64,000 nucleotides of DNA from Desulfovibrio sp. (lineage in GTDB: Bacteria; Desulfobacterota; Desulfovibrionia; Desulfovibrionales; Desulfovibrionaceae): assembly GCA_031291035.1 (NCBI GenBank), contig JAISLI010000050.1, positions 43,846-107,845 of the forward strand. The letters are read 5' to 3'. Each line of letters starts with the position of its first letter. Within the stretch, counting starts at the first letter, position 1. A program made the position numbers and the translations under genes. The notes beneath the pieces are model-generated. The model was not told the origin of the DNA, made no database searches, and worked only from the letters and a program-made list of their open reading frames with translations. This document shows positions 2,810 to 63,475 of the stretch, in pieces.

Positions 2810-2855
2810 CGCCGTAAAGCGCCGAAGGGAGCGTTTAAAAGGCAAAATGCTCTAA
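2810..2855. repeat. IS630-end-like repeat between prmC and uvrB
   Basis: CGCCGTAAAGCGCCGAAGGGAGCGTTTAAAAGGCAAAATGCTCTAA is nearly identical to 48488-48533; terminal GCAAAATGCTCTA matches the IS630 remnant end at 63389-63401. Confidence 0.75.
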
Positions 2856-3712
2856 TTGCTGTAGCCCTTCACGGCGCAGGTGCAGCGTTCCAGACCGGCT
2901 AGGTCACGAAATGTTTTTGCCTTGCGGAAAGAGCCGGCGCCGTCAAACAATGCGCGCGCGCGCGCGCCCTGTTCCGCGCCGTGTTCCACAAGCGCCAAGC
3001 CGTTTTTTTTGAGTGCGCGCGCGGCCAGACGGATGGCGGCTTCAAGATGGGCGGCGCCCTCAAGGGGAGAAAAGAGCGCTTCGTGCGGTTCGAAGCGCAG
3101 CACTTCAGCCATGACCCGCGCTGTTTCGGACTCCCCGATATAGGGAGGGTTGCTTACCACAAGATCGCAGGAGCATGATTGTAGCGGCGCACGGCGCATA
3201 TCTGCCTGAACATACGTGAGTTTTGAGGACGCTTCAAGTCTTCGGGCGTTGATTTTTGCGACTTCAAGCGCCTTTCCGGAAATGTCCAGGAGCATGCCGC
3301 GCCAGAGCCTGCGTTCCAAAACCAGGGTTATGCCGATGCATCCGGAGCCTGAGCCGACATCCACAAAAAACAGGCGGCGGGACTCCGGCAGAAGCGCAAG
3401 GGCCGTCTCAACCAGTAATTCCGTTTCGGGGCGCGGGATCAGGGTATCCGGGGTAACGTGAAAATTACGGCTGAAAAATTCTTTTTGACCGAGAATATAG
3501 GCCAGAGGCTCTCCGTTGATCCTGCGGAGAACCAGCTGGTTCAGCAGTGAAATCTGTTCCTCCGCCAACGCCCTGTCAACACCGGCGATACAATCCAGAG
3601 GGCTGATTTCAAGAAGGTGGCAAACCAGAAGCCTGGCGCACAGGAGCGGGCTGTCCACCCCGGCGGCGCCGAGTCGCCGTCCGGCTTCCGTTACATAACG
3701 GCGCAGACGCAT
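2852..3712 (-). CDS. prmC: Peptide chain release factor N5-glutamine methyltransferase
   Basis: FVDVGSGSGCIGITL SAM-binding motif and NPPYI catalytic motif; PrmC/HemK N-terminal helical domain. Confidence 0.95.
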   Translation of the reverse strand: MRLRRYVTEAGRRLGAAGVDSPLLCARLLVCHLLEISPLDCIAGVDRALAEEQISLLNQLVLRRINGEPLAYILGQKEFFSRNFHVTPDTLIPRPETELLVETALALLPESRRLFFVDVGSGSGCIGITLVLERRLWRGMLLDISGKALEVAKINARRLEASSKLTYVQADMRRAPLQSCSCDLVVSNPPYIGESETARVMAEVLRFEPHEALFSPLEGAAHLEAAIRLAARALKKNGLALVEHGAEQGARARALFDGAGSFRKAKTFRDLAGLERCTCAVKGYSN

Positions 3713-17329: not shown

Positions 17330-17420
17330 ATTGGAGCACGTCACGTTGGAGCGAATTGGGGCAGTTCACCCGGCTCCTGTCCGCCGGGCTGGAAGCAGTC
17401 AGCGGATGGAGCCGGCTGTG

Positions 17421-17459
17421 GATTGAAACGAGTGAATTGTTTCAAACGTTAATTGCTGT
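17421..17459. repeat. Copy of dispersed intergenic repeat (module GATTGAAACGAGTGAA + GTGAATTGTTTCAAACGTTAATTGCT)
   Basis: Matches 34336-34352 and 34418-34447 with few mismatches. Confidence 0.7.
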
Positions 17460-17557
17460 AGTACACGCCCGCCTGAGCGGCTTGATGCGTTTGCCTTTAT
17501 GTCCCGCGGCGGTGCGGCAAAGACGGGCTCCGGCTTTTACCGGAGGACAGGCACAAC

Positions 17558-34294: not shown

Positions 34295-34320
34295 AAAGGC
34301 GGCCGTCGGCCGCCTTTTTA
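34295..34320 (+). terminator. Rho-independent terminator of rpsA
   Basis: GGCGGCC-GTC-GGCCGCC followed by TTTTT (34298-34319). Confidence 0.9.
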
Positions 34321-34323
34321 TCT

Positions 34324-34450
34324 GGAGCGGTTCACGAATGAAACGAGTGAACCGCTCCGCAAGGATTTGCTGGCAAATCCTTGCCGCGAAACAGGAGCAG
34401 GCGGGCTTTGCCCGCCGTGAGCGAACTGTTTCAAGCGTTAGTTGCTCTAA
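34324..34450. repeat. Tandem three-hairpin intergenic repeat (reference copy)
   Basis: Perfect inverted repeats: GGAGCGGTTCAC/GTGAACCGCTCC (34324-34358), GCAAGGATTTGC-TG-GCAAATCCTTGC (34359-34384), GGCGGGC-TTT-GCCCGCC (34400-34416). Tail GAACTGTTTCAAGCGTTAGTTGCTCTA. Confidence 0.9.
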
Positions 34451-34463
34451 CGGGGGACAGGGC

Positions 34464-35747
34464 ATGAAACCCTTCCGCTTCATACCGCGGCTTGACGACG
34501 AACAGCTGCGCGCCGCGCAGCTTGAAGGTCTGCGCTATACCCTGACGCAGGCGGCCAAAAGTCCCCAGTATCGCGCCAGACTGGACGCCTGCGGCGCGCG
34601 GGCGGAAGAGGTTTCAAGTCTTGACGATCTGCGCCGTCTGCCCACTGTGGACGCGGAAGACCTGCGCGAGGGCTATCCCTTCCCCCTGCTCTGCGTGCCC
34701 GAGAAAGAGGTGATACGCATACACGCATCCAGCGGCACCACGGGCAGGCGCAAAATTCTGGCCTATACGCGGCGCGACGTGGAAATGTTTTCCACCCAGA
34801 TGGCCCGCTGCTTTGAACTGGCCGGGCTTACGGAAGAAGACCGCATGCAGGTGGCTGTGGGCTACGGCCTGTGGACGGCCGGCGCGGGTTTTCAGGGGGG
34901 CAGCGAAATGTTGGGCATGCTGACCATACCCGTGGGCCCCGGCAATCTGGAAATGCACCTTCAGCTTTTGCGGGACGCGGGGGCCACCTGTTTCGGCGCC
35001 ACCGCCTCAATGGCCCTGTTGCTGGCCGAAGAAGTGGAGCGCTCCGGCCTGCGCGGTGAACTGCGCCTCAAAAAAGTGATATGCGGGGCAGAGGCGCGCA
35101 GCGAAAAAATGCGTCTGGCTATTGAAGACAAACTGGGCCTTGAGGCCAGCTTTGACATAGGCGGCATGACGGAAATGTACGGCCCCGGCACGGCCATAGA
35201 CTGCGCGGCCCATACCGGCCTGCACTACTGGGCCGACCTTTTCATCATTGAAGTGCTTGATCCCGAGACTCTTGAGCCTGTGGCCGAGGGTAAAGTGGGG
35301 GAGATGGTTGTCACAAGTCTGCGCAAGGAGGCCGTGCCCCTGTTGCGCTACCGTACCCACGATCTGACGCGCCTTTTGCCCGGGCGCTGCTCCTGCGGCC
35401 TCAACATGCCCCGCCATGACAAAATCCTCGGCCGCTCGGACGACATGATCATCTACCGCGGCGTGAATATCTATCCTGGTCAGATTATGGAAGTCATAGG
35501 AGATTTCCCGGAGCTGGGCGGGGAGTACCGGATGGAACTCACGCGGGACGGGCACTCGCTGGAGCATCTGTTGCTCACGGTTGAACGGGCGCGGGAGGGC
35601 GGTGGCACGGAGGACGAGGCGCTCGTCAGGGCGCTGGAACGGCGGCTGCACAAAACCCTGCTGGCCCGTGTGGACGTGCGTCTGACGGAGTATGCGTCGT
35701 TGCCGCGCACTTTCGGCAAATCCAAACGCGTTGTGGACAAAAGGTAA
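34464..35747 (+). CDS. Phenylacetate-CoA ligase family protein (PaaK-like), copy 2
   Basis: [56 protein letters not shown]. Start at MKPFRF; upstream extension is in the repeat. Confidence 0.93.
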
Positions 35748-41695: not shown

Positions 41696-42336
41696 GTGGA
41701 AGACCGGAGTTATGCGGCGTTTCCGGTAACGGCGCCGTTTGGGGGCGATGTCATGCCTGGGGAAAAAACGAGACGATCTGTCTCAAAAAGATTGCTGAAC
41801 CGCCTGTCTGCGCTATCGTTTCTTTTGTTGTTACATCAGCCGTCTGCGCGTTTATAATCAGTAGGATGCAAAGAACAAACGAAAACGGCTGTAATGTTCG
41901 ATTTGGACTACTTTAAAAAGATAAATGATGGTTATGGGCACGCTGCCGGCGATGAAGTTCTGAGACGTGTCGTCGATAGAGTAAAAGCTGGCATCCGTCC
42001 CTATGATTTGTTTGCGCGTTACGGGGGGGGGAAGAATTTATATTGTTTATCTCGGATATTGATGAGACAGGCATAGCAGCCCTTGTGGAGCGTTGCAGGC
42101 GGAGCATTGAATCAAAGCCTGTCGACTATGAAGATTGCGCCATACCAGTTACCGCCAGCTTCGGCATTGCCGGGGTAGATCCGGATAAAGGACTGAATAC
42201 GGCGATCATGTTTGCGGACCACGCGCTGTATCAAGCTAAAAAGGAAGGACGCAACGGGGTTGTGCTGCATAAGCCGGATGCCGGAAATAAAACGAGTGAA
42301 CCGCCCTGCAAGGATTTGCCGGGGAATCATTGGTAA
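41696..42336 (+). pseudogene. GGDEF-domain (diguanylate cyclase-like) pseudogene
   Basis: Frame 1: MPGEKTRRSVSKRLLNRLSALSFLLLLHQPSARL* then [46 protein letters not shown]. Other frame: [28 protein letters not shown]...ASFGIAGVDPDKGLNTAIMFADHALYQAKKEGRNGVVL. Frame break at G9 (42023-42031), plus an in-frame stop. Confidence 0.88.
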
Positions 42337-48404: not shown

Positions 48405-48533
48405 AGAGCAAGTTCACTTTGAAATTGCTCTGGCGGCGGGGCGGATGCACCGCTGCCCGCCCATGAGGCGCAGGCGAAACCGCGTTTCGCCGTAAAGCGC
48501 CGAAGGGAGCGGTTCAAAAGCAAAATGCCCTAA
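48405..48533. repeat. Small (~129 bp) element bounded by IS630-end-like sequences (MITE candidate)
   Basis: Left AGAGCAAGTTCA-CTT-TGAAATTGCTCT imperfect palindrome; right CGCCGTAAAGCGCCGAAGGGAGCGGTTCAAAAGCAAAATGCCCTAA matches 2810-2855. Confidence 0.6.
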
Positions 48534-49307: not shown

Positions 49308-49362
49308 GAGCGGCCCGGCCACGCGAGGCCGGGCCGCTCACCCGTTTCATTCGTGAACCGCG
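49308..49362. repeat. Intergenic hairpin plus reverse-orientation copy of dispersed repeat module
   Basis: GAGCGGCCCGGCC-ACGCGA-GGCCGGGCCGCTC (49308-49339, 13-bp arms), then ACCCGTTTCATTCGTGAACCGC = reverse complement of GCGGTTCACGAATGAAACGGGT, matching 34327-34348 with one mismatch. Confidence 0.85.
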
Positions 49363-54834: not shown

Positions 54835-54865
54835 GCGAACTGTTTGTTTCAAGCGTAAACTACTT
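54835..54865. repeat. Degenerate copy of dispersed repeat tail module
   Basis: GCGAACTGTTTGTTTCAAGCGTAAACTACTTTT compared with GCGAACTGTTTCAAGCGTTAGTTGCTCT at 34421. Confidence 0.5.
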
Positions 54866-63110: not shown

Positions 63111-63400
63111 TTGCCTCTTGATAAACAAAGGAAAATCACGCTTATTAAGACTATTATTAGTTTTGATGTAAACAAGTTTTCTTCACGCAATATCGAAATC
63201 AAATACTTGCCGGCGTATAGTCCAGATTTGAATCCTATTGAGAAGATGTGGAGCAAGGTAAAAACAAAATTGCGTGCATGCCAAGCAAGGGATGGGGATA
63301 CTCTTTTCCTGGCAGTCAAGGAAGCTTTCGAGTGCATAACGCCTTCAAACGTGCAAGGGTGGTTTGAAAGCTGTGGATACTTTCAATAGCAAAATGCTCT
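63111..63400 (+). mobile_element. IS630-family transposase C-terminal remnant with one terminal end
   Basis: NIEIKYLPAYSPDLNPIEKMWSKVKTKLRA (IS630 DDE C-terminal motif) ending at TAG 63387-63389; terminal GCAAAATGCTCT abuts TA target at 63400-63401. Confidence 0.85.
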
Positions 63401-63475
63401 AGCGAAACCGCAGACCCACTTCAAATGGTCATCGCGCCAAGAGGCTTTCCATTCAAGGGATTGGGATTCAGACAT
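63401..63475 (-). pseudogene. AlbA_2/Schlafen-like ATP-binding protein, first 25 residues only, truncated by IS630 end
   Basis: Reverse frame from 63475: MSESQSLEWKASWRDDHLKWVCGFA, then R-A-F-C-Y-stop from IS end. Matches the typical start ESxxxEWKxSWRDxxLKWxCGFANA of this family. Confidence 0.7.

Follow-up and report, generated by a model that had tools for sequence, protein, structure and literature searches.

What kind of element places three consecutive hairpins between rpsA and the next gene of a Desulfovibrio genome? The window, by which we mean the whole 64,000-nt stretch of DNA analysed here, carries these hairpins directly downstream of the rpsA terminator, and the first-pass annotation took them for a dispersed mosaic repeat, a BIME/REP-type or nonautonomous family put together from interchangeable hairpin modules. 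Here, we examine the boundaries, copies, insertion sites and transposon relatives of this unit, which we call family A.

The window copy and its neighbourhood

Direct reading confirms three near-perfect hairpins (34324-34416) with the arms first described, namely 12 bp, 12 bp with a 2-nt loop and 7 bp (Table 1). An outer stem, GAAACAG/CTGTTTC, encloses hairpin 3. The position after the rpsA terminator, whose own hairpin (34298-34319) lies directly 5' of the element, and before a paaK-like gene is also correct. The likely ATG of the paaK-like gene is at 34464, and a 469-aa open reading frame starting inside the element was rejected as an artefact, because the element-free relative G001 does not support it and has a conserved start matching this ATG. 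The window copy is 96.8% identical to the family A consensus over 125 nt.

Table 1. Positions in the window of the family A copy, its parts and the related repeats and transposon remnants.
Feature	Position	Strand	Remarks
Family A MITE copy without flanking TA duplication	34325..34447	+	123 bp; absent from the orthologous G001 site
Hairpin 1, 12-bp arms	34324..34358	+	GGAGCGGTTCAC 34324-34335 / GTGAACCGCTCC 34347-34358
Hairpin 2, 12-bp arms, 2-nt loop	34359..34384	+	GCAAGGATTTGC 34359-34370 / GCAAATCCTTGC 34373-34384
Hairpin 3, 7-bp arms	34400..34416	+	GGCGGGC 34400-34406 / GCCCGCC 34410-34416
Left target duplication	34323..34324	.	TG in the window copy, TA in most copies, one substitution; copy alignment
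Right target duplication	34448..34449	.	TA; copy alignment
Left terminal inverted repeat	34325..34344	+	GAGCGGTTCACGAATGAAAC; TA included, 18/22 positions shared with the ends of the IS630 elements L163 and L142
Right terminal inverted repeat, imperfect	34428..34447	-	minus strand reads GAGCAACTAACGCTTGAAAC
Family A fragment, hairpins 1-2	42286..42332	+	match to family A
Family A left-end fragment	49338..49361	-	match to family A
Family A right-end fragment	54835..54864	+	by eye
Family B full copy (second MITE family)	48405..48532	+	96.9% to the family B consensus
Family B 3' end at TA of family A 3' end	2810..2863	+	GCTCTA/ATTGCTGTA
Fusion of family C (17358-17429) and family A 3' end (17431-17460)	17358..17460	+
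IS630 transposase C-terminal remnant and right end	63183..63401	+	TAGAGCATTTTGCTATTGAAAG on the minus strand; matches the family B right end

A dispersed and colinear repeat family

Dispersal above chance was borne out by a search of the element's own genome (2.04 Mb, 51 contigs), which gave at least 40 scored places for family A among 122 candidates, with a best E value outside the self-match of 8.6e-50; the place counts of families A and B, at least 40 each, are lower bounds. The copies form one colinear unit, TAGAGCRGTTCACGAATGAAAC ... GTTTCAAGCGTTAATTGCTGTA, and the first 30 aligned copies share their ends and sit in unrelated surroundings. The genome has full-length copies outside the window. 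The recurrences that had been listed within the window at 17421, 42288, 49340 and 54835 are real, yet each is only a fragment, the first three being covered by family A matches (Table 1).

Family A or related copies were found in 20 of 79 Desulfovibrio genomes, and exact matches to the family A 3' end among named genomes all fall in metagenome bins labelled Desulfovibrio sp. The genome G017 carries a sister subfamily whose identity to family A is about 79%. Its 30 aligned copies are mostly near-identical, and most are bounded by TAGAGC...GCTCTA with unrelated flanks. In G078, a complete genome of 3.5 Mb, there are 166 matches to the two ends and none to a reversed control pattern.

Transposon ends and target site duplication

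Family A is short (123 bp), contains no transposase gene and ends in imperfect inverted repeats of about 22 nt, TAGAGCRGTTCACGAATGAAAC and TACAGCAATTAACGCTTGAAAC, bounded by TA. Compared consensus to consensus, the left and right ends match at 11 of the 16 inner nucleotides (shuffle p 0.001-0.002). The element is absent at orthologous sites of the nearest relative, G001. At the cleanest empty site (L009/L198), G001 reads CATGTTTTAACCTGG and the copy-bearing locus CATGTTTTA(element)TAACCTGG, a single TA having been duplicated. A second site, L013/L203, is similar (GCGCTAGACAG) with poor alignment farther out, which gives one exact empty site and one nearly so. The sites at L007, L002, L011, L018, L005 and L021 and the window site are likewise element-free in G001, with diverged junctions. 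At the window site, G001 reads TTTTTATCATAAATGACGGGGG and the window TTTTTATCTGGAGC...GCTCTAACGGGGG, so that there has been either a mutation of one end base or a change of the site itself. TA has mutated next to many older copies of the genome that holds the window (G000), as it has on the left side of the window copy.

The target is YTAR in 25/26 two-ended copies of G017, in all 19 of family B and in 8/11 of family A. A 4-bp, IS5-like duplication of YTAR was rejected in favour of TA, because the G..C tips stay constant at CTAA and TTAA targets alike.

IS630 elements of the genus and the candidate transposase

IS630 genes of the genus were identified by DDE_3, those at L142 and L143 also by the NCBIfam model transpos_IS630, and they mostly end a few bases before ...GCTCTA. 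The ends of these elements read TAGAGCGCTTTCCGGTTGAATT and TAGAGCGTTTTCCGAATGAAAAT at L142 (G016), TAGAGCGGTTTCTGAATGAAAAC at L163 (G087), TAGAGCAATTCAACTTTGAAATG at L143 (G022) and TAGAGCATTTTGCTATTGAAAG in the remnants of the own genome. The left end of family A is identical to the L142 and L163 ends at 18 of 22 positions, a moderate identity (inner-16-nt shuffle p ~1e-4), and for family B 20 of 22 positions agree with the ends of L143 and of the remnants in the own genome. A matching element is thus seen in the own genome for family B, as remnants, and for family A in relatives only; G000 yielded no intact IS630 element with exactly the ends of family A, for which G016 and G087 have the best partners.

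Several further elements were seen in this survey. Fragments similar to the IS630 remnant of the window lie at L061 and L062. The complete IS630 element at L143 starts with a TAG that ends the reading frame of the upstream gene. At L058:1384-2510, an IS630-type element with ends unlike TAGAGC has two overlapping frames (151 and 224 aa), possibly a frameshifted transposase gene. G078 contains several copies of a further end family, TAGAGCATTTTACCTTTGAAAA, probably another MITE family.

We conclude that family A is very probably a MITE moved in trans by an IS630/Tc1-mariner-type transposase, with duplication of TA at YTAR. Such an enzyme would cut at the TA within YTAR, and the hairpins would be parts of the ends and the core, palindromic either through their role in transposition or through template-switch repair. 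For family A, we infer an IS630 transposase from the likeness of the ends. Another mover, for example an IS5-family enzyme that targets YTAR, is unlikely. The observed YTAR target is one that some IS5-family elements share, and MITEPsy1 of Pseudomonas syringae, a 100-bp MITE thought to be IS5-derived, uses CTAG/YTAA (PMC3189936). Also, DDE_3 matches were absent from the copy-rich genomes G017, G078, G051, G045 and G055, where some copies are fresh, and in G078 no end pair about 1 kb apart, as an autonomous element would have, occurs among the 100 listed of the 166 matches; therefore, in the genomes lacking DDE_3, IS630 is a candidate mover and an IS5-type enzyme may act instead. Against an IS5-type mover, the IS630 elements of the genus share the TAGAGC tips and a matching inner terminal inverted repeat with the MITEs, and the tips kept at CTAA and TTAA targets point to a duplication of TA rather than YTAR.

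Folding and the possibility of a host function

The RNA of the window element is predicted to fold at -67.3 kcal/mol (z = -7.0 versus shuffles; z = -7.2 for the DNA fold). Among 32 copies compared, 92% of the structure is paired, and 48 cells hold paired changes versus 18.9 in shuffles. About half of these cells stem from a single subfamily difference, so that the independent paired-change events are few. The stable fold, the excess of paired changes and the frequent location of copies right at stop codons (see below) would suit a structured RNA or 3'-end element under selection to serve the host, for instance by protecting the 3' ends of mRNAs. We consider this very improbable, as the sites differ among close relatives, many copies are degraded and the paired changes owe so much to one subfamily difference. 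A known RNA family was rejected, since no Rfam family reached its gathering score in a covariance-model search with the element. An intrinsic terminator is not apparent either: there is no T-tail, and a scan found no site, although it also missed the obvious rpsA terminator and hence is weak. Conservation of the hairpins may come from transposase binding, template-switch repair or RNA.

Origin of the mosaic appearance

There is next to no probability that a RAYT (TnpA-REP) spread these repeats as palindromes of REP/BIME type: family A is palindromic, intergenic and partly mosaic as such repeats are, but it is a colinear 123-bp unit and not a single palindrome of 20-40 nt in alternating orientation, and it has transposon-type terminal inverted repeats and a TA duplication. 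A genome search for an associated RAYT/TnpA_REP transposase found none; all it gave were two degenerate remnants of Y1_Tnp, the better of them beside IS200-like stem-loops. At L055 there is an IS200-like TnpA remnant with one internal stop and stem-loops on its flanks.

The idea of interchangeable hairpin modules likewise found no support, given the colinear full copies with transposon-type ends and TA target duplication. Instead, the mosaic look is due to nested MITE insertions, to internal deletions that took place at short repeats and to fusion of copies with repeats of other families. In the short forms L033, L044, L048 and L051, the segment that separates two TTTGCC repeats of hairpins 2 and 3 is missing, and L036 looks like a palindrome-mediated inversion. 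Family B targets TTAR, and its places are mostly 90-99% identical to the query. In several family A copies, family B is inserted at a TA inside the 3' end, CGTTA/GAGCAATTTC ... GCTCTA/ATTGCTGTA, and this nesting offers a second direct view of the TA duplication. Family C (17358-17429; L273-L291), fused to a family A 3' end in the window, is a third dispersed repeat with about 30 further places. It has a long hairpin, GGGGCAATCCACCCGGCTCC...GGAGCCGGCTGTGGATTGAAAC, ends in GTGGATTGAAAC, which we take to resemble CRISPR repeat ends, and is often preceded by CTTCAGGGAG, presumably similar to IS200/IS605 ends.

Residency at stop codons

Over four sets, 35 of 97 testable copies are inserted exactly at a stop codon, TAA or TAG (family A 7/26, family B 6/24, G017 14/29, G078 8/18). 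Per set, the share is 25-48%, whereas TA sites elsewhere in noncoding DNA fall in a stop codon in 2-6% of cases (odds 13-20, p 4e-5 to 4e-10). The codon-weighted gene calls on the flanks, on which these shares are based, are approximate; an earlier, cruder gene model gave the same answer. At L009, L013, L007, L002, L011 and L018, G001 has a stop codon at the exact insertion place. The TAG stop is restored because the target TA is followed by the element's first base, G, and copies at stop codons would persist through this rebuilding.

From target-base preference, 11%, 7% and 27% of non-genic copies were expected at stop codons and 7/22, 6/21 and 14/29 were observed; the excess beyond base preference in these three sets has p values of 0.007, 0.003 and 0.013. 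Base preference accounts for much of the stop-codon excess, not all of it. The right end of the family A consensus is TAC, and family A occupies stop codons by its left (TAG) end only (7:0), whereas the TAG-ended elements of G017 and G078 do so by both ends (8:6 and 4:4), a contrast that is suggestive only (hypergeometric by-hand estimate ~0.03). We hypothesize tentatively, and short of favouring the idea, that the family is specialised for the stop-codon niche, YTAR targeting and the leading G turning gene ends into harmless harbours.

Comparison with known systems and significance

In kind, family A is ordinary, an IS630-associated MITE family of RUP/Correia type. RUP of Streptococcus pneumoniae (107 bp, IS630-Spn1) is likened to it by description, being about 100 bp long, intergenic and hairpin-forming, with a TA target and ends that resemble an IS630 element, which in that case resides in the same host. 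Apart from its host, family A differs from RUP in its three tandem hairpins, in an IS630 partner that sits in other species of the genus and in the stop-codon residency measured here for the Desulfovibrio elements. The Correia/NEMIS elements of Neisseria are similar in size (100-150 bp), in TA at the termini, in a strong RNA fold and in long terminal inverted repeats. Both Correia ends pair with each other, whereas the left end of family A also forms a local hairpin. MITEPsy1 resembles family A in its scale of about 100 bp and its CTAG/YTAA target (PMC3189936); in contrast, it has a 4-nt duplication and is thought to derive from ISPsy2. BOX of the pneumococcus shares the modular look, but its terminal inverted repeats resemble ISSpn2. 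Repeats that supply stop codons are already known from BOX, which encodes the stop codon of 36 genes, and the available part of that source does not describe exact insertion into a stop-codon TA (PMC3049150).

These results add a genus-wide MITE superfamily to Desulfovibrio, where none has been reported in the literature searched, and genomes such as G017 and G078, where copies are numerous and no IS630 gene is seen, pose a testable question as to the mover. The most interesting part is the unusually clear stop-codon niche, a countable case in which target preference and the first base of the element together make insertion into a stop codon harmless. If the specialisation is real, each such insertion places strong hairpins at the stop codon of an mRNA, and 3'-end processing may change.
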